64,000 bases of DNA from a virus. The notes under the pieces are model-generated. The model saw only the letters and a program-made list of their open reading frames with translations. It was not told the origin of the DNA and ran no database searches. Below are positions 1,806-42,377 of this stretch, in pieces (position 1 is the first letter of the stretch; each line of letters opens with the position of its first letter). The DNA is taken from positions 1-64,000 of IMG/VR virus record IMGVR_UViG_3300020595_003017; one strand, 5' to 3'. Position numbers and translations under genes: made by a program.

Positions 1806-4800
1806 ATGGTGCGGATAGCACATTTCGGGGATACCCACATCAAAAATCTGAAATACCATTACGAGTATCGTAAAGCATTTGAGGAAATTTACCAGACTCT
1901 GCGAGAGCAGGATGTAGACTACATCGTCCATACTGGCGACTTGGCTCACACAAAGACACAACTCTCACCCGAGTACTTTGAACTGGCCACAGACTTCCTA
2001 AAGAACTTGGCAGACATCGCCGAGACCCATATCATTCTTGGCAACCATGACGGCAACCTGCGGAACAGCAGTCGCCAAGATGCCATCACTCCAATTGTTG
2101 ATGCCCTTGACCATGCAAGCCTGATGCTTCACAAGTATTCGGGCGAAGTTCAATTAGAGGATGACCTGACTATTAACGTTTTATCAATCTTTGACGAGAC
2201 CAATTGGCAAGACCCAACTGATCCAGAGGCTATCAACATTGCCCTTTACCACGGAGCAATTAATAATAGTAAAACCGACATGGGTTGGATTATGGATCAT
2301 GGCGACCACGACATCAAAGTATTTGATAAGTTTGATTACGCTATGTTGGGTGACATCCACAAGACCAATCAGATGCTCAACGAAAGTGGCACCATCCGCT
2401 ATTGTGGCTCTACTATCCAGCAAAATCACGGCGAGACAAACGACAAGGGCTTTTTGATTTGGGATATTAAAAGCAAGACTGAGTTTGATGTCAAGCATCA
2501 TCTTGTAAAGAATATTAAACCTTTTACGACAATTGAGTTGACTTCCAAAGGGAACATGCCTAGAGACCTAGACATCCCAGAAGGAGCACGACTTCGTGTG
2601 GTAACTCACTACAAAGTTTCACTAGACAAGATCCGTCGGGTTATGGATATTGCTAAGAGCAAGTACAAACCTGAGAGCCTATCTTTTGTCAACAAGGCTG
2701 GACTTAAGCGTTCCAGCGTGGATGTTGATGGATTGGGCAGCACAGAGAACTTGCGGGACCAACAAGTCCAAGAGCGACTTATCCGGGAATACTTAAAAGA
2801 ATATGAACCCGACGACAAGACCCTAGAAAGAGTTTTCCAACTCAACTCACGCTACGATGCTCGGGTCAACGGCGAGGATGCCTCTCTGCGAAACGTGGAA
2901 TGGTCCCTTAAAAGTATGCAATGGGACAACCTCTTCAACTACGGAGAAAACAACACCATCAACTTTGAGAAGCTGAACGGCGTTGTGGGTGTCTTTGGCA
3001 AGAACTATTCAGGCAAGAGTTCTGTAATTGATAGTGCGTTATATACGATTTACAACTCTATTAGCAAGAACAATCGCAAGAACCTGAACATCATCAACCA
3101 GAATAAGCAGGCTGGCTGCGGTCGTGTTGAAATTGATATTGACGGCAAGGCCTACATCATTGAGAGAAAGTCGGAGAAGTATAAAAAGAAACTTCATGGC
3201 GAAGAAACCGACGAAGCAAAAACCGATGTAGAGTTTTCAATGATTGACCCAGCAACAGGTGAAGAGACGAGTCTTAACTCGCTTGACCGCAACGGCACCG
3301 ACAAAGAGATCCGTAAAATCTTCGGAACCATTGATGACTTCTTACTTACGAGCATGTCCAGCCAGATGGGTGCGATGACTTTCATCAACGAGGGTTCAAC
3401 CAAGCGCAAGGAAATCTTAGCCAAGTTCTTGGACCTTGACCAGTTTGAGAAGAAGTTCCGAGCCTCCAAGAATGATAGCATTGAGACCCGTGCTCTTCTC
3501 AAAAAACTGGAAGATAATACTTTTGATGAAGATATTACGCAACTCGTCGGACAAATGTCCGATAATGAAAAGGACCGAGAAACGCAAGAAAGGAAATGTA
3601 AGAAACTAACTAACCAGTTAGAAACCATTTCCGAGCGAGTAAAAGAGATTGATGGACTTTTCGCATCTGCCCCTGTTGAGCTTATTAATATTAGAAAAGA
3701 GACAGCAAGACTTGCGGCAGCAGAGCAAAAATCCTCAGACCTCCATCTCAAATCAGCCCAGACCAAAAAGCAAAAGAAAGATGTTCTGGCGCAAGCTGAA
3801 GTCTTAAAGAAACTTTTAGATGCTACTGATGTTGATTCACTCCGAACCCAAATTTCTCGTTGTGACGAATTACAAAAAGACCTCACAACTATTGAGAACC
3901 AGATTAAGCTGGAAGAAAACAATAGAAGCACTTACGAGAAGAAGCTCAGTGCTCTTGATGAAGTACCTTGCGGTCCTGACTGTGGTCTCCGCAAATATAT
4001 CAAAGATGCTTATGAAGCTAAAGAACTTCTCCAAGAGGTAAAGAAGACTCTCACTCTTTTGAAGCGCCGTCATGACAAACTCACCGACAAGTTGGAAGAG
4101 ATGGATGTGGAAACGCTGGAGAAAGAAAAGAAACTTTATAAAGATAGGGACAAGGAATATGCTGACCTGTCTACAGAGGGCACTAACCTTGATTTGCTTT
4201 TGGCGCAAACCACAAACAAACTTCACCTCCTTACAAATGAGGTGGCAAGCATCAAAACCAAGATTGAAGTTTACGAACTCAACAAGGAAGCAATCGAGAA
4301 CCGAGAAGGTCTCATCAAGGAGCAGGACGACCTAAAAGAAAATGCCATCAAGATGGAGAGTAATATCGCCATTTGCGATTCTAAAGTACTTGCTCTTGTC
4401 AAACAACATGGCGGTATTGAAACCCAGATTGCAAACATCAAAGAGAAGCAGCAAGAACTGGAAGACCTGCGGACGGAGTATGCTGCCTATGATTTGTTTA
4501 TGCGGTGTACTCACCCCAACGGTATCAGTTATGATGTGGTGAAGCGGATGCTTCCTCTCATCAACGAAGAGGTTAGCACGGTGCTGGCCAACGTCACCGA
4601 CTTTGATATTTTCTTTGAGGCAGAAAAGAATAAGTTAGACATCTTCATCAAGCATCCAAAGTACGAAGCACGACCTTTAGAGATGGCTTCTGGCGCAGAG
4701 AAGACGCTGGCAGCAATTGCCATTCGCATTGCCCTGACCAATGTGTCAACACTACCAAAATCAGACATTATGATTATGGATGAGCCGGGCACAGCGTTGG

Positions 4801-4958
4801 ACGCCGAAAACCTTGAAGGCTTTATGCGAGTGATGGAAATGATTAAGGGCTACTACAAGACTGTGCTTTTGATTACTCACTTGGATAGTCTCAAAGATAT
4901 TGCCGATATGACTATTGACATTGAACGTCAAGATGGGTATGCTTATGTCTCCCAGTAA
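1806..4958 (+). CDS. Fused SbcD-SbcC / Mre11-Rad50-type nuclease-ATPase (gp47-gp46 fusion)
   Basis: A 1050-residue protein joining two normally separate subunits. Residues 1-330 are a calcineurin-like phosphoesterase with metal-site motifs FGDTH (D9, H11), HTGDLAH (D45), GNHD (80-82) and GDIHK. From about residue 370 an SbcC/Rad50 ATPase begins: Walker A GKNYSGKS at 398-405, long coiled coils broken by a zinc-hook-like CGPDC (C722, C726), a signature region LEMASGAEKTLAA and Walker B IMIMDEPGTALD (D992, E993). In T4 gp46/gp47 process ends for recombination-dependent replication and degrade host DNA. The fusion is uninterrupted. CxxxC instead of the usual CxxC at the hook is odd. Confidence 0.92.
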   Translation: MVRIAHFGDTHIKNLKYHYEYRKAFEEIYQTLREQDVDYIVHTGDLAHTKTQLSPEYFELATDFLKNLADIAETHIILGNHDGNLRNSSRQDAITPIVDALDHASLMLHKYSGEVQLEDDLTINVLSIFDETNWQDPTDPEAINIALYHGAINNSKTDMGWIMDHGDHDIKVFDKFDYAMLGDIHKTNQMLNESGTIRYCGSTIQQNHGETNDKGFLIWDIKSKTEFDVKHHLVKNIKPFTTIELTSKGNMPRDLDIPEGARLRVVTHYKVSLDKIRRVMDIAKSKYKPESLSFVNKAGLKRSSVDVDGLGSTENLRDQQVQERLIREYLKEYEPDDKTLERVFQLNSRYDARVNGEDASLRNVEWSLKSMQWDNLFNYGENNTINFEKLNGVVGVFGKNYSGKSSVIDSALYTIYNSISKNNRKNLNIINQNKQAGCGRVEIDIDGKAYIIERKSEKYKKKLHGEETDEAKTDVEFSMIDPATGEETSLNSLDRNGTDKEIRKIFGTIDDFLLTSMSSQMGAMTFINEGSTKRKEILAKFLDLDQFEKKFRASKNDSIETRALLKKLEDNTFDEDITQLVGQMSDNEKDRETQERKCKKLTNQLETISERVKEIDGLFASAPVELINIRKETARLAAAEQKSSDLHLKSAQTKKQKKDVLAQAEVLKKLLDATDVDSLRTQISRCDELQKDLTTIENQIKLEENNRSTYEKKLSALDEVPCGPDCGLRKYIKDAYEAKELLQEVKKTLTLLKRRHDKLTDKLEEMDVETLEKEKKLYKDRDKEYADLSTEGTNLDLLLAQTTNKLHLLTNEVASIKTKIEVYELNKEAIENREGLIKEQDDLKENAIKMESNIAICDSKVLALVKQHGGIETQIANIKEKQQELEDLRTEYAAYDLFMRCTHPNGISYDVVKRMLPLINEEVSTVLANVTDFDIFFEAEKNKLDIFIKHPKYEARPLEMASGAEKTLAAIAIRIALTNVSTLPKSDIMIMDEPGTALDAENLEGFMRVMEMIKGYYKTVLLITHLDSLKDIADMTIDIERQDGYAYVSQ

Positions 4959-6917: not shown

Positions 6918-7231
6918 TGAAATGGTTGTGGTACAAGCTAAAGTTAGGCTGGTGGAAATTTGTGTTGGGGTTTGTCGTTTTGGCAAGCCTGCTTATTTAT
7001 TTTTACCGCCTATTAAAACCATCTGATGACAAGATTGAATACTTAGAGGCCATAAAAGCGGAGGCTACAGTAGCCTTAAAAGAAAATGAGTTGCGTGGTA
7101 GACTAGAAAAAGATAAGATTGGAGCGATCAAAGGAGTCTTTGAAAGCCGTCTTGAAGATACAAAGAAAATAGATGACAGAGAAGAACGATTGAAAGCATT
7201 AATCAGACTTCACAAGGAATTGGACATTTAA
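6917..7231 (+). CDS. Membrane-anchored coiled-coil protein, possible i-spanin
   Basis: 104 residues from ATG 6917: a short basic N-terminus, one transmembrane segment (FVLGFVVLASLLIYFY, about residues 15-30), then a charged helical region to the end. Rz-type inner-membrane spanins have this architecture, and the upstream neighbour is holin-like. No endolysin or o-spanin is adjacent, so a structural or scaffolding role remains possible. An upstream in-frame ATG (6767) lies inside the previous gene and is rejected. Confidence 0.65.
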   Translation: MKWLWYKLKLGWWKFVLGFVVLASLLIYFYRLLKPSDDKIEYLEAIKAEATVALKENELRGRLEKDKIGAIKGVFESRLEDTKKIDDREERLKALIRLHKELDI

Positions 7232-7242
7232 GGAGATAAAAA

Positions 7243-8376
7243 ATGGTAGACATTCCTACACTAGATATTGAGGATTATGATCCCGAACTAAACGAAGAAG
7301 AAGAGGCTGTTGAAGATAAATCTGGCGGCGCTCTAACTTATGCTATTGTTGGCGCTGGTCAAGGCGGCGGACGTATGGCTAAGGCTTTTTATGATATGGG
7401 TTATACTAAAACTATTGCAGTCAATACTGCTCGTTCAGACTTGAATGGTCTTGATCTTCCAGATGAGCAAAAGTTTCTTGTTGACGAACATGGCGAACAG
7501 GGTGCCGGCAAAGACCAGGCAAAAGCCCAAGCAGCCATCGAGCGTAAAGAGCAAGAGGTCTTTAACAAATTCCGTGAGGTGTTTGGCACCAACGTAGATC
7601 GTATTTTGATCTGTCTTGGGGTTTCGGGCGGATCAGGCGGCGGCACTGTGAACACTCTTATTAAGGTTGCTAAGAAGTATTTTACTTACATTGGCATTGA
7701 AGATGTGGACGAACGTGTTGGCGTGGTTGCATCGCTTCCAACTGCTGGCGAGTCAGCCTCCCCGAGGGTAGCTAAGAACGCTCACGCTCGCATGACTCAA
7801 CTTTGCGGGCTAGCAGAAAAAGGACAGATTGCACCACTGATTATGGTGGACAATGAAAAGATTAAAAAGCTTTACCCTAAGCTCACAGTTAAGAAGTTCT
7901 GGACAACCATCAATAATACGGTCGCTGGCTTGTTTCATGTCTTTAACGTACTTGCAAACAAGGATTCAGAGTATACAACTTTTGATGCTACAGACTATGA
8001 TAGTATTATGCGCCAGTCTGGTTGTATGATTATGGGCGTTACCAGTGTAAAAGACATTGAGAATGAGACTGCCGTCTCAAATGCCCTTAAAAAGAACTTA
8101 GAGAAAACTCTTCTCGCTGAAGGTTTTGACTTGACAACTGCTACAGGTGCTGCTTGTATTGTTGTTGGTAGCGAAGAAATCTTTGAAGAGACTGCTGGAC
8201 TGATGGACAACATTGAGTTTGGCTTTGATACCTTGGCTGCCTTGACAGGTGGTGCAATGGTTCACCGTGGGATTTATGAGGATCCTAATAAAAGCAAACT
8301 GGTCACATATACTTTAGTCAGTGGTCTTAAGAGACCTGCTAAGCGAATTGAAGGCCTCAAAAAGTTTTTGAAATAA
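7243..8376 (+). CDS. Tubulin/FtsZ-family GTPase
   Basis: 377 residues. After an acidic 28-residue leader come the FtsZ/tubulin landmarks in order: nucleotide loop GAGQGGGR (37-44), NTARSDLNGL (61-70, like NTDxxxL of FtsZ), glycine-rich tubulin signature SGGSGGG (128-134), and a T7-loop-like TFDATDYD (246-253) keeping the two acidic residues (D248, D251) that drive GTP hydrolysis across a filament interface. The protein is therefore expected to polymerise and hydrolyse GTP. Phage tubulins (PhuZ, TubZ) position DNA or replication centres. This one has no long C-terminal tail. A second, degenerate relative is at 40203. The start follows AAGGAG with good spacing. Confidence 0.85.
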   Translation: MVDIPTLDIEDYDPELNEEEEAVEDKSGGALTYAIVGAGQGGGRMAKAFYDMGYTKTIAVNTARSDLNGLDLPDEQKFLVDEHGEQGAGKDQAKAQAAIERKEQEVFNKFREVFGTNVDRILICLGVSGGSGGGTVNTLIKVAKKYFTYIGIEDVDERVGVVASLPTAGESASPRVAKNAHARMTQLCGLAEKGQIAPLIMVDNEKIKKLYPKLTVKKFWTTINNTVAGLFHVFNVLANKDSEYTTFDATDYDSIMRQSGCMIMGVTSVKDIENETAVSNALKKNLEKTLLAEGFDLTTATGAACIVVGSEEIFEETAGLMDNIEFGFDTLAALTGGAMVHRGIYEDPNKSKLVTYTLVSGLKRPAKRIEGLKKFLK

Positions 8377-8377
8377 T

Positions 8378-8758
8378 ATGAAAAAAATAGTTGCACTCAT
8401 ACTACTTTCTTCTCTCAACGCTGCTGCGGCAGAGGTTACGAAGTTCGAACCCCGCCCAGCAGTTGTTGAGCAAGAAGGAAGCACTTATGTTGGAATACTC
8501 CTTAGTGAAGAGGACTTCCGTAAAATGCTGGAAAAGAAAATTGAGACCATCGCCAAACTTTCAGAATGTTCGGTGGACCAAAAGGTTTGCAGCCAGATGC
8601 AAGTGACGTACATTCGTTCCATTACCAAGCTAGAAGAACAACTAAAGAAAAATAATTCTTGGTTCGACAGGAACAGAGGAACGCTTGGCATCGTCACAGG
8701 TTTAGTTATTGGGACTGGGCTATCTGTAGGTATAGTTCATGCTGTTTATCAGAAATGA
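8378..8758 (+). CDS. Exported protein with C-terminal transmembrane helix
   Basis: 126 residues. MKKIVALILLSSLNAAAAEV is a typical signal peptide with an AAA-A cleavage region. The mature part has a helical stretch and two Cys (SECSVDQKVCSQM) that could form a disulfide in the periplasm. A hydrophobic helix (LGIVTGLVIGTGLSVGIVHA) lies near the C-terminus. The topology predicts periplasmic exposure with an inner-membrane anchor. It could belong to a lysis or superinfection-exclusion function; no family is recognised. Confidence 0.7.
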   Translation: MKKIVALILLSSLNAAAAEVTKFEPRPAVVEQEGSTYVGILLSEEDFRKMLEKKIETIAKLSECSVDQKVCSQMQVTYIRSITKLEEQLKKNNSWFDRNRGTLGIVTGLVIGTGLSVGIVHAVYQK

Positions 8759-37551: not shown

Positions 37552-38982
37552 ATGGTGCAACCTAGAAAAGTAGATCCAAACTTAAATTCAATTAGGTACT
37601 CGAACGCCGACAACGATTCGGATGCGAGAGAGGTTTTTAAAGACAGAGAAAAGTATGCCAATTTCATTTTCCCAGCCGCTTCGTCTCTTGGTGTCGGTAC
37701 GGCTTATAATTTTTGGGGTAAGGACAGGTTTTTTGGAAAAATAAACCCGGTTGGAAACCCCGCTATAGTAATTGAGAGTCGCCTAAGACAACTTAGGCAC
37801 GCAGATCCAGGACAAACATTTTATGCGTTAGATTTCGTAGCCGATGCGTGGAGAGATTTTTGCGACAGAATTAATCTCGAATTGGCCAACGGGACGCTGT
37901 ACGACTCTGGTCCCTATTCGTCAATGACTGTCAAGCGAGGGTGGACAGACGTCTATAAAGAATATCACAACTATATGGTAAATGATTTGTACCCTGCTTT
38001 TCAAAATATTTTCATGAGTTCCCCAAAAAGAAAAAGAATGCTGACAGACTTTGATACTTTCCTAGAGGTATTTGATGAGTTTTCAGGGAAAATAATTAAA
38101 AACGCAGGACCTATAACTTTATCGGGCTTTGTAGAGAGTTTATATTATTCACCACTGAACACAGGGCTTGCGCTTGAGATCGCCACTGATGCTCATGATG
38201 ATGATCTAAGAAAAGAAATAAAGTTTTTGTACGATGAAAATTTTCCACTGGTTATGAAATTAGCAACATACTATGGTTTTTCTGTGGACAAGAATGCGCC
38301 TTGGAGATTTGTTATAGATCCAAGCTCCCTTGCAGCGCAGGAATATATGCTTGGCCTTTTTATGGAAAGCGGAGATCTGCCACCACAATCAGGAGCGGAG
38401 TGTGAGGATGGCGTGTTTATACCAAAAAACAGAAGAAGTCCAGAACTTTTTGGTTATTCAGAAATACCAGGCTTTGAAGATGTAATCAGGCACGCCCCTG
38501 GTTACGCCCACTACCAAGATCAGATAGGGGGTTCTTATTCTCCAGTCGTAGTGTATACTGGGTTATTTAACGCTTCTTACCTTGAAACTATTACAGACGA
38601 CATGAATTTACTAAAGGTTTATTTGTTTGACTTTTACAACAGATATGTGTCCGCCAACGCTAGCTTATTAATACCTGCTGGGACAATAGACGATTGTGAC
38701 AAACCTAGAACTATCTTAAGGGACTTAGTGAATCCTGAAATTTTGTCATTATACGGAGACAAATGGTCTCTTAGGGCCACCTATGTTCTACGTCGCCGAG
38801 AGCGAGGGATAGTGGAAAGTAGAGATAATGAGATTAAAGACTTGAGAGATATTTTTAATTTCTATGACTTCATGCCAAGCAACAGAAACTCTAACAAGTA
38901 TCTTCGTGCCCTAGGGTACATCAATGAAAAGTTCATTGGGAGGTTAACGACTAGCTCGTTTGATACTAATATTATCTCATAG
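37552..38982 (+). CDS. Structural protein, 476 aa, baseplate region
   Basis: ATG 37552, one base after the previous stop; an upstream in-frame start at 37486 is inside that gene. Largely helical with many aromatic residues (FYALDFVADAWRDFCDRINL; YHNYMVNDLYPAFQNIFMSS). It closes the run of virion genes, so a baseplate or tail-tip component is the natural guess. No family recognised. Confidence 0.65.
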   Translation: MVQPRKVDPNLNSIRYSNADNDSDAREVFKDREKYANFIFPAASSLGVGTAYNFWGKDRFFGKINPVGNPAIVIESRLRQLRHADPGQTFYALDFVADAWRDFCDRINLELANGTLYDSGPYSSMTVKRGWTDVYKEYHNYMVNDLYPAFQNIFMSSPKRKRMLTDFDTFLEVFDEFSGKIIKNAGPITLSGFVESLYYSPLNTGLALEIATDAHDDDLRKEIKFLYDENFPLVMKLATYYGFSVDKNAPWRFVIDPSSLAAQEYMLGLFMESGDLPPQSGAECEDGVFIPKNRRSPELFGYSEIPGFEDVIRHAPGYAHYQDQIGGSYSPVVVYTGLFNASYLETITDDMNLLKVYLFDFYNRYVSANASLLIPAGTIDDCDKPRTILRDLVNPEILSLYGDKWSLRATYVLRRRERGIVESRDNEIKDLRDIFNFYDFMPSNRNSNKYLRALGYINEKFIGRLTTSSFDTNIIS

Positions 38983-38989
38983 GTTATTT

Positions 38990-40210
38990 ATGTTATTTCA
39001 AACTTTAGACGACAAGACTGAGTGTGTTGGCATTTACGCTGACAATAAACTACTATTTGATGTAGGTGACTTCCCCGAGGGGCTTAAGTCTACTTGGAGT
39101 TACTCGCCCTACCTAAGAGGCATGGATATCGATTACGCATCCTTGTATCTTGAAGGCGAAGACCTGTCTGGCAATATACCTGAGTTTTTGCGGGACGACT
39201 GGAGTGATGTATCAGAAAGAATATTGGCTTTCAGGCGGTCTTTACAAATCTCTAAGGTCAATCAAGACGAAAACTGTTTCTTCGACCTTGTGCCAGAAAG
39301 ATTCCTCAAGGACTTTTGTGAGGTAAAGAATAATATAACTAAACATATTCTTAAGACAGTACCAAAGCCTAAAAGATACGATTATCACAAGCATGTTTCA
39401 ATGCTGCTAGGAGATATAGCTTGCCAACCAGTAACTGTGGACAGAAAAAAGCTTTCATCTTATCTTACTAGTAAGAAGCTAGGCAATCAAGCCAGGGCTA
39501 TGATGGAGTGCTCTCCTTATGTTAGGTATAATCAGTTTGGTACTGTTACAGGTAGGCTTACCACTAAGAAAAACTCTTTCCCGATTTTAACTTTGAATAG
39601 ATCACTAAGACATGCTATTAAGCCACAAAATGATTATTTTTTAGAACTGGATTTTAATGGGGCAGAGGTAAGAACTCTTCTTGGGATGTTAGGATCACCG
39701 CAACCTGTGAATGACGTTCATGACTTCCACCTGACAAACGTTTTTAATTCTTTGGTTTCTAGAGAGCAGGCCAAGACTTTGTTTTTCTCGTGGCTGTATG
39801 GCTCAAGGCAAATGGCTGCCTCTGCGGAGGGTAAAAAGCTAGAAAGTTTTTATGAGAGATCAAAACTGTTGGATAAATTTTATTGTGACTCTACTGTAAC
39901 GACGCCATTTGGCAAAGTCATTAACGACGTGGACAAACATCTTGCTTTGAACTATTTGGTCCAGTCAACCACGGCAGAACTAACCCTAAAGCAAGCTTTG
40001 AAGATAGATTACCTGCTCAGAAGAGATGGCACTGGCTCAACAATAGCTTTTTTAATACATGACGCTATTGTTCTGGACCTTAAAAATGAGGATGAGTGGT
40101 TGTTGCCTAGCATTAAAAAACTAATGGCTTCAACCAATTTTGGCAACTTCATCATAAATACTAAATCAGGAAAAACACTTGGTTCTTTAAGGGATATTAA
40201 AATTGGATAA
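38990..40210 (+). CDS. Minimal family A DNA polymerase (palm/fingers only)
   Basis: 406 residues from ATG 38990. Pol A motifs are clear: TVTGRLTTKK before the palm, motif A LELDFNGAEVR (D221), motif B REQAKTLFFSWLYG (the R-x3-K-x3-F-x3-YG O-helix) and motif C LIHDAIVLDL (H357, D358). No 3'-5' exonuclease or 5' nuclease domain is attached; a 5' nuclease is separate at 43533. The enzyme is far shorter than E. coli Pol I Klenow (about 600 aa). A polymerase made of just this part recalls the split Pol A of Rhodothermus phage RM378. Confidence 0.85.
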   Translation: MLFQTLDDKTECVGIYADNKLLFDVGDFPEGLKSTWSYSPYLRGMDIDYASLYLEGEDLSGNIPEFLRDDWSDVSERILAFRRSLQISKVNQDENCFFDLVPERFLKDFCEVKNNITKHILKTVPKPKRYDYHKHVSMLLGDIACQPVTVDRKKLSSYLTSKKLGNQARAMMECSPYVRYNQFGTVTGRLTTKKNSFPILTLNRSLRHAIKPQNDYFLELDFNGAEVRTLLGMLGSPQPVNDVHDFHLTNVFNSLVSREQAKTLFFSWLYGSRQMAASAEGKKLESFYERSKLLDKFYCDSTVTTPFGKVINDVDKHLALNYLVQSTTAELTLKQALKIDYLLRRDGTGSTIAFLIHDAIVLDLKNEDEWLLPSIKKLMASTNFGNFIINTKSGKTLGSLRDIKIG

Positions 40211-41060
40211 GGTTATAGGATTAGGAAAATTTGGCTGTTCCATCGCTGAGCATTTAACGTCTTATCCAGAGTATCGAGTTTATAAAATCGATTCTGACAT
40301 TACAGAACGAGGCTCCCTTTCTATCGGAGCACATAACGACATGCAAGAATATGAAAACTTAATTGATGATCAAGAAATAACAGTATACCTCAGGTCAGTT
40401 AAGACAGACGATGAGGTGCTGATTATCACAGAGGGCGGCGAACCAATATCTGGTGCTTTGCTTAGAATTTTATCGACTATAAAAGACGCTAAAGTCTCAG
40501 TTCTTTATGTTTGCCCAGATCGACAAATATGTTCTGAAATACAAAAACGAGACGATAAAATATGTTTCAATATAATTCAGCAATACGCCCGCAGCGGGGC
40601 CATTGAAACTGTTTATTTGTTAAGCAAATCATCTGTTGAGGCTCTGGTCGGAGATGTTTCGATTCAAGAGTATGAGAAAAGTATGTCGTACTTTGTTTCT
40701 TATGTGTTGGCGATGGTTAATTACTTTAACCACACAAAAGCAATTGTCTCAAACAAGTTATCTGTAAGAAATTCTTGTAGGATTGCAACTTTTGGAGTAT
40801 GCTCCCTTGAGAACAACGCCCCGGTTAGCTTGTTGTTCCCGTTACAAAAAATATCAGACGTGCATTTCTATTATGGGTTACCTGAAGAAACCATAGAGGG
40901 TGACGGAACCATCATGAAAAAAATAAAACAGCAAGTTACGGATTACAAAACAGACGAAAATATGAGCGTTGGTTTCTCTGTCTATCCTTTAACTTTGGAC
41001 GACCCATTTGTGGCTTGTCTTGCCTATTCGAGTGAAATACAAAATTTTGCCTTTATTTGA
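40203..41060 (+). CDS. Degenerate tubulin/FtsZ-fold protein
   Basis: 285 residues, TTG start overlapping the polymerase stop. It follows the GTPase at 7243 segment by segment: VIGLGKFGCSIAEHL for the first glycine loop, VLIITEGGEPISGALLRILS in place of the tubulin signature, then ARSGAIETVYLLSKSSVEAL and MSYFVSYVLAMVNYFN against the partner's AEKGQIAPLIMVDNEKIKKL and TTINNTVAGLFHVFN. The catalytic T7-loop acids are lost (SNKLSVRNSCRIATFG). It probably keeps the fold but not GTP hydrolysis, and could cap or co-assemble with the active protein. This alignment was made by eye. Confidence 0.65.
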   Translation: MDKVIGLGKFGCSIAEHLTSYPEYRVYKIDSDITERGSLSIGAHNDMQEYENLIDDQEITVYLRSVKTDDEVLIITEGGEPISGALLRILSTIKDAKVSVLYVCPDRQICSEIQKRDDKICFNIIQQYARSGAIETVYLLSKSSVEALVGDVSIQEYEKSMSYFVSYVLAMVNYFNHTKAIVSNKLSVRNSCRIATFGVCSLENNAPVSLLFPLQKISDVHFYYGLPEETIEGDGTIMKKIKQQVTDYKTDENMSVGFSVYPLTLDDPFVACLAYSSEIQNFAFI

Positions 41061-41097: not shown

Positions 41098-41538
41098 ATG
41101 AACCAAAACAATAGGCGAGGTATTCTTCTAGCCTCTTTTGTGAACACTGAAGACGAAAATATAATAAATGCAGAGGTTCAATGGATTGTTGAAAAGCTTG
41201 AGCTTACCAATAATTACATTTTTTTGCTACAGAATCTTGATACCCCAGAAAAGAAAATACTAACTTACAGTGCTATAACAGAGCCGGGGAAAAGATTTAA
41301 TCCAAGGTTGCACACTATGCGAATCCACCGGAAAAAACAGACAAATACGCTTTACACCATAAATGCACTTAATGCAGCAGTGTCAAAACAACACGATGGA
41401 CAGACTGGGAAGCATCTAAAACTTGATTGGGAAGAGTATTCTAATTGTCTGTTATTGACCTCTGGAAAAAAACTTCAAGCTTATCCCATTGAAGTAATAA
41501 AGATTTTTAAAATAGAAGACCCTCCTGAGGAAAATTAG
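41098..41538 (+). CDS. Hypothetical protein, 146 aa
   Basis: An alpha/beta protein (RRGILLASFVNTEDENIINA; KLDWEEYSNCLLLTSGKKLQ) with a basic middle (LHTMRIHRKKQT) and an acidic tail (IEDPPEEN). It directly follows the degenerate tubulin-fold gene and precedes SSB. No recognisable domain; a partner of the preceding protein is possible from adjacency alone. Confidence 0.65.
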   Translation: MNQNNRRGILLASFVNTEDENIINAEVQWIVEKLELTNNYIFLLQNLDTPEKKILTYSAITEPGKRFNPRLHTMRIHRKKQTNTLYTINALNAAVSKQHDGQTGKHLKLDWEEYSNCLLLTSGKKLQAYPIEVIKIFKIEDPPEEN

Positions 41539-41539
41539 C

Positions 41540-41567
41540 TTTACACCCTATCCTGATATGGTATAGT
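41540..41567 (+). promoter_or_regulatory. Sigma70-type promoter before SSB
   Basis: TTTACA (41540-41545), 16 bp, TATAGT (41562-41567), 36 bp before ATG 41604. Good match in a 65-bp intergenic gap, with AAAGGAG as ribosome binding site downstream. Confidence 0.65.
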
Positions 41568-41603
41568 AGATCACGGTCAACTAACCAGTAAAGGAGAAAT
41601 ACA

Positions 41604-42377
41604 ATGGGTATTGACTTGAGCAAGATGAGGGCGAAGCACGCTGCTCTTACGACCAGAGGAGGAGACTCCTCAGAAAACTTTTGGAAGCCAGAAGAGGGCA
41701 CGCACCAGTTGCGACTAGTATGCCCGCCAAACGGCGATCCTTTCTTTGAGGCATATTATCACTACGGCATGGGTGCCGAGGGTAAGACCACTGTCCTCAG
41801 CCCACGCACTAACGGTGGTGATGACCCCATCGCAGAGTGGGGAACCCGTCTTTGGAACGAAGGCACCGACGGCTCTAAGGAAGCAGCCAAACGCTTTTGG
41901 CCTAAGATGCGTATTTTCGCCCCCATCGTCGTCCGTGGCGAAGAGGACAAAGGCGTCCGCTGGTGGGGCTTTTCCCGCACCACCTATCAGGCACTTCTTG
42001 ACTTAGTTCTTGATCCTGAATACGGTGACATCACCGATACCGAGAAGGGTACAGACATCCGTATTGATTACGGCAAGAAGTCTGGTCAATCCTTTCCGAC
42101 GACGGATGTCCGACCAATGCGTCGTACTTCGCCCCTTGCGAAGACAGAGGAAGAAGTCAACACTCTTCTTGAAAGCATTACATCCGCTGCCGAAATCTTT
42201 GACGTCGCCTCCTATGAGGATTGTGAGAAGGTTCTTAATGAGACGCTCGGTGACACAGACACCAGCGCCACCAACGAGACAACTCGCTACAACGACAGCA
42301 CCGCTACCAAGTCTGACAAGGGCATGGAAGGCGTGGCAGATATCGAATCAGCGTTTGACGATTTGCTGTCTAGTTGA
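41604..42377 (+). CDS. Single-stranded DNA-binding protein (gp32-like)
   Basis: 257 residues. FWKPEEGTHQLRLVCPPNGD and RWWGFSRTTYQALLDLVLDP, then DIRIDYGKKSGQSFPTTDVR, are gp32-type OB-fold segments. The C-terminal 55 residues are acidic (ending ADIESAFDDLLSS), as in SSBs that recruit partners through their tails. It coats ssDNA for replication and works with the UvsX-like protein encoded next. T4 gp32 is 301 aa; the zinc motif of T4 is not seen here. Confidence 0.85.
   Translation: MGIDLSKMRAKHAALTTRGGDSSENFWKPEEGTHQLRLVCPPNGDPFFEAYYHYGMGAEGKTTVLSPRTNGGDDPIAEWGTRLWNEGTDGSKEAAKRFWPKMRIFAPIVVRGEEDKGVRWWGFSRTTYQALLDLVLDPEYGDITDTEKGTDIRIDYGKKSGQSFPTTDVRPMRRTSPLAKTEEEVNTLLESITSAAEIFDVASYEDCEKVLNETLGDTDTSATNETTRYNDSTATKSDKGMEGVADIESAFDDLLSS

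Follow-up and report, generated by a model that had tools for sequence, protein, structure and literature searches.

A tubulin-fold pseudo-GTPase encoded next to the DNA polymerase of marine phages and its possible role as a polymerase partner

The window analysed here, a stretch of 64,000 nucleotides from a 190.5 kb virus record, encodes a protein of 285 aa (40203..41060, TTG start), referred to below as P1. P1 has a tubulin fold, has lost the GTPase motifs of that fold, is constantly linked to a family A DNA polymerase gene, is under purifying selection and diverges together with the polymerase. The best-supported reading, to which we give an even chance, is that P1, a pseudo-GTPase with a tubulin fold, has been put to a new use as a partner dedicated to the polymerase. 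That a tubulin fold has been turned into a constitutive subunit of the replicative DNA polymerase in a large group of marine phages is put forward tentatively, with an expectation somewhat short of even. The window also contains a second tubulin gene, ORF 7243..8376, whose product is called the 7243 tubulin. The features of the P1 region described below and the 7243 gene are all on the + strand.

Results and Discussion

Fold and superfamily assignment of P1

As a single sequence, P1 gave nothing convincing in Pfam, PHROG, PDB, NCBIfam or PADLOC, and its family is unnamed in Pfam, PHROGs, NCBIfam and the PDB. An AlphaFold model obtained with an alignment of 62 IMG/VR relatives as input has a pLDDT of 94.6 and a pTM of 0.92, and displays the topology of tubulins, with a predicted Rossmann N-domain, a central helix H7 and a C-terminal domain. 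A Foldseek search of the PDB with this model returned 506 matches at E≤0.001 (best E 6.5e-13), the best 50 of which are FtsZ or TubZ without exception; whole-chain TM-scores to FtsZ and TubZ are mostly 0.70–0.73 over about 315 columns. Among viral models, P1 matches phage FtsZ-like proteins and PhuZ. The predicted structure confirms a confident tubulin/FtsZ fold for P1, where the original prediction had named a different Rossmann-like fold as the outcome that would speak against it.

The relationship is also detectable at the level of sequence profiles. BLASTP of P1 against the 7243 protein gives nothing (E 8.9), so the by-eye alignment of the two proteins in the original prediction lies beyond pairwise methods. 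Their family profiles nevertheless align collinearly over 236 columns (hhalign, 62 P1 relatives, E 1.7e-4), bearing out that alignment. When 115 P1 relatives are compared with a combined profile of 7243-type proteins and plasmid TubZ, the match reaches 97.5% with an E-value of 8.9e-12, and P1 and the 7243 protein do share the tubulin fold, as had been proposed. The P1 profile against TubZ alone gives 96.6% and E 5.4e-10 over 274 columns. Nine unrelated phage proteins used as controls, a Rossmann epimerase among them, score at most 0.5%. When 562 ORFs from two phage genomes are compared with the P1 profile, only 7243-type tubulins match it strongly, apart from P1 itself. In the reverse direction, a TubZ-type profile has a single match in a 165 kb genome (G010), and this is P1, at 1.2e-10. 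P1 is thus a member of the tubulin/FtsZ superfamily by profile-detectable homology, and the TubZ match, the clean controls and the reverse match together place it on the TubZ side. TubZ, a plasmid and phage GTPase, is the closest relative by profile, with S1-T1, T4, H5 and H7 in the same order. FtsZ is the closest solved fold, yet the profile of 115 P1 relatives gives no meaningful alignment with FtsZ.

That P1 might instead be an ordinary Rossmann dinucleotide-binding protein of the TrkA_N type is hinted at by TrkA_N matches of 21 of 62 family members (best 4.2e-5) and by a weak match of P1 to KtrA in the PDB. The whole-chain model, however, fits FtsZ and TubZ and not TrkA_N or NAD-binding Rossmann proteins, with no Rossmann oxidoreductase among the best 50 Foldseek matches. 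Since the P1 and TubZ profiles also find each other reciprocally with clean controls, we regard this explanation as extremely improbable.

Loss of the GTPase motifs

The T4 and T7 loops of P1 were placed from the order of strands, helices and loops. A T1-like loop (residues 5–12, IGLGKFGC; 40215..40238) follows strand 1 in the model; its GLGxxGC pattern is kept in the near and distant clades and altered in the third. The T4-like loop (residues 77–84, EGGEPISG; 40431..40454) is located by sequence, model and family alignment where GGGTGTG would be expected, and is preceded by a strand, as is the T4 loop. The signature loop reads GGEPISG, as originally noted, and does not agree with the GGGTG[ST]G of active GTPases. 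In the family it takes the form GxxxISG or, across 115 sequences, G-x-x-x-[IV]-[ST]-G, where I/V replaces the fifth glycine of tubulins. In the third clade it is further degenerated, to sequences resembling GSSYSSN or GASFSSS.

The central helix H7 (residues 154–176 by DSSP on the model; 40662..40730) coincides in profile alignments with the H7 helices of TubZ and of the 7243 tubulin. The T7 region that follows (residues 178–190 by family alignments; 40734..40772) has no catalytic acid pair: neither NxDxxD nor the FDxxE of TubZ occurs in the P1 of the window. The loss of the T7 acids claimed at the outset thus extends to the family: whatever the register, an acid pair occurs in no more than 14 of 115 sequences, and in no more than 1 of 42 in the third clade. 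Helices H8 and H9 of FtsZ appear to be missing from the P1 model, judging its secondary structure by eye. In known members of the tubulin superfamily, T7 and H8 form the longitudinal contact. P1 differs from FtsZ in lacking both GGGTGTG and NxDxxD. Compared to TubZ, it has no T7 acid pair, an altered T4 and a model apparently without H8 and H9, and its gene lies behind that of a DNA polymerase, whereas TubZ belongs to a partition operon. From its sequence, P1 is best read as a pseudo-GTPase of the TubZ branch.

The signature of the family is NIIQQYARSG (residues 123–132; 40569..40598 by family alignments). Residues Y24, Q126, R130 and S131 are invariant in all 157 family sequences, and pairs with unsaturated dS give a dN/dS of 0.03–0.045, indicating purifying selection. 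The strictest conservation lies outside the GTP loops, which suggests a protein contact rather than catalysis. Two of the three clades retain the glycines of T1 and T4, and P1 may thus still bind a ligand. A C-terminal tail, DDQ[DE]I[SG], is present in 48 of 115 P1 proteins, which belong to the distant clade, and absent from the clade of the window; conserved and acidic, it resembles partner-recruiting tails.

Linkage to the DNA polymerase

The gene constantly found upstream of P1 encodes a minimal DNA polymerase of family A, which in the window is 416 aa long (38960..40210; Pfam DNA_pol_A, 1.2e-12). P1-linked polymerases are small, 339–416 aa, with DNA_pol_A as their sole domain. According to the ORF coordinates, the end of the polymerase gene and the beginning of P1 share 8 nt (40203..40210, TTGGATAA), and exactly this overlap is found in 29 of 42 near-clade loci as well as in the window. 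To avoid circularity, linkage was searched from polymerase genes and not from P1; the loci so found are not all independent genomes. In the near clade (18 loci) and the third clade (59 loci), P1 lies downstream of the polymerase without exception. In the distant clade it does so in 66 loci, and 7 others end at most 0.7 kb past the polymerase. The linkage expected of a polymerase accessory subunit is therefore constant wherever the contig continues. Many distant-clade loci have an intervening ORF between the two genes. This ORF (at loci L124, L125, L134 and L160) encodes a protein of about 100 aa resembling NTP-pyrophosphohydrolases (KLVRDRIPEII...).

Loci retrieved with P1 as the query show the family A polymerase gene on one side of it and, on the other, the gene of a gp32-like single-strand DNA binding protein (SSB), which is downstream in 75 of 80. 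In the window, P1 is followed by a gene for a 146-aa protein (41098..41538) and by the SSB gene (41604..42377; PHROG 1192, 9.5e-17). The mirror-tree correlation between P1 and the polymerase (r 0.89–0.90) exceeds that of every other gene pair in the module. The 146-aa protein is co-inherited with both (r 0.75–0.78), and at the SSB the correlation drops to 0.06. Distances of genes on either side of 41538–41604 are uncorrelated across related phages, and this collapse points to a sharp recombination boundary behind orf 41098. Because adjacent genes share ancestry, some linkage and some mirror-tree correlation are expected without contact; since adjacency explains part of the correlation, the co-divergence supports, and does not prove, contact between P1 and the polymerase.

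Relatives of P1 are encoded in at least 571 IMG/VR stretches, and the family is that of a large group of marine viruses of microbes, mostly uncultured. A tblastn search of the INPHARED phages with two family members gave no match. Judged by UvsX, the nearest cultured phage is Microcystis phage Mel-JY01. In its genome a distant version of the polymerase gene leads straight into a homologue of orf 41098, with P1 absent. In a WOR-3 MAG (CP070664.1), a phage-like polymerase-P1-SSB-UvsX segment with masked gaps lies between bacterial chromosome genes, either by misassembly or by integration.

Other genes were noted in the course of the analysis. A single protein of 1050 aa in the window (1806–4958) joins SbcD-like and SbcC-like halves. 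A three-gene cluster elsewhere (G000:C1:95847-100294, L184) includes a PrkA/YeaG-type serine kinase, 73% conserved in a distant relative and preceded by two genes that are YeaH-like and SpoVR-like by eye; a kinase of this type is also present in Thermus phage phiYS40.

Relationship to the 7243 tubulin

The 7243 gene (7243..8376) encodes a TubZ-type tubulin. Its product matches Pfam Tubulin (PF00091, 7.9e-9) and TubZ-like_C (PF22453, 2.6e-6), FtsZ and TubZ in the PDB, and plasmid TubZ of the Bacillus type. The TubZ-type acids D248 and D251 are kept and are invariant in 16 relatives, in keeping with the active partner of the original prediction. Its AlphaFold model was left out (pLDDT 47.6, from a shallow alignment), and the negatives of a PF22453 genome search, which missed the window's own 7243 gene, were disregarded. 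The tubulin is 83–95% identical over some 80 marine viral contigs, and its direct neighbours only about 50%. The genes flanking it have no family match; short membrane-protein-like genes around it look like a putative lysis cassette.

The original prediction took the two proteins for a two-component cytomotive pair in which P1 would serve the filaments of the 7243 tubulin, its active partner, as cap, nucleator or adaptor. P1 and the 7243 tubulin are both of the TubZ branch, P1 is nearer to the 7243 type than to FtsZ, and the two genes do occur together in one phage: in the window and in records of 178.6 kb and 171.9 kb. In a first search, all seven records with a 7243-type match either held P1 or, for one 63.7 kb fragment, lacked it. 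Yet no 7243-type gene was detected in P1-bearing records of 193.8, 172.4, 165.1 and 148.1 kb, and relatives lacking the partner had been named in advance as evidence against a pair. The 165 kb genome is syntenic with the window; all its ORFs of at least 90 aa, compared with 7243, TubZ and FtsZ profiles, yielded only P1. In this genome the counterparts of 6920–7231 and 8378–8758, as assigned from their position and by eye, directly overlap one another, leaving the 7243 site intact, clean and empty. In the window, P1 and the 7243 gene are 33 kb apart, and their divergence is weakly correlated (r 0.47), below the value for the polymerase and the same tubulin (0.63). With an empty 7243 site and P1 linked to the polymerase, we consider the pair quite unlikely; it does not hold in the form proposed. 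P1 is a widespread core gene, and the 7243 tubulin an accessory gene not detected in most relatives. A secondary interaction between the two proteins could still occur in the one clade that has both genes.

Functional implications

On the best-supported reading, P1 is a TubZ-branch protein that has been stripped of the catalytic T7 acids, of helix H8 and of a conserved phosphate loop, and that would now serve a minimal DNA polymerase of family A as its dedicated phage-encoded partner. The P1 gene adjoins, and often overlaps, that of the polymerase, and the two are inherited as a unit. P1 is probably bound to the polymerase through a conserved surface comprising Y24, the Q-Y-A-R-S segment that ends H5, and the C-terminal Q280. 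We infer both the physical binding and an accessory role, most likely that of a clamp-like, regulatory or anchoring polymerase subunit rather than a filament. Against this reading stand the distant polymerase of Mel-JY01, which does without P1, the ORF that intervenes in many distant-clade loci, and the T1 and T4 glycines kept in two of the three clades.

T7 DNA polymerase uses host thioredoxin as an accessory protein. It offers an analogy for P1, as a family A phage polymerase with a small unrelated accessory; thioredoxin, however, is made by the host and has a fold unrelated to P1, whose binding is a proposal. PhuZ of the nucleus-forming phages is likewise a phage-borne tubulin fold (Foldseek E 1.5e-6 for that of phage Noxifer) and is a GTPase that forms a spindle (PMC4244570), whereas P1 has no catalytic motif and is linked with the polymerase. 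In open-licence papers, whose silence is not proof of absence, we found tubulins of jumbo phages and plasmids, and no GTPase-dead or polymerase-linked phage tubulin.

P1 could also form a scaffold, or polymers independent of nucleotides, by which the replication site is organised and the polymerase recruited. The absence of T7 and of H8, the longitudinal contact in known members, makes this rather unlikely, even with a tubulin fold, a position in the replication module and the precedent of other phages, whose tubulin organises DNA (PMC4244570). A different proposal, that P1 is a decoy subunit which caps or poisons host FtsZ and so blocks host division, draws on FtsZ as the closest fold in the PDB and on the consideration that a subunit without T7 and H8 could join one filament end only; phages do make FtsZ inhibitors, for example lambda Kil (PMC3961180). 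The sequence affinity of P1 is nevertheless to TubZ and not to FtsZ, its strictly conserved residues also lie outside FtsZ-contact loops, and its gene belongs to the core, being linked to the polymerase gene and in many loci overlapping it. We therefore find a decoy improbable, and prefer a polymerase partner.

With the fold retained without its energy-burning parts and its gene behind that of the polymerase, P1 suggests a filament former reused as a helper in DNA copying. Proteins of the tubulin superfamily have been described as nucleotide-driven filaments, and P1 would represent a new use of the fold. If this is true, a cytoskeletal GTPase has been turned into replication machinery, and these marine phages would have in P1 a replication component that is new and open to test.
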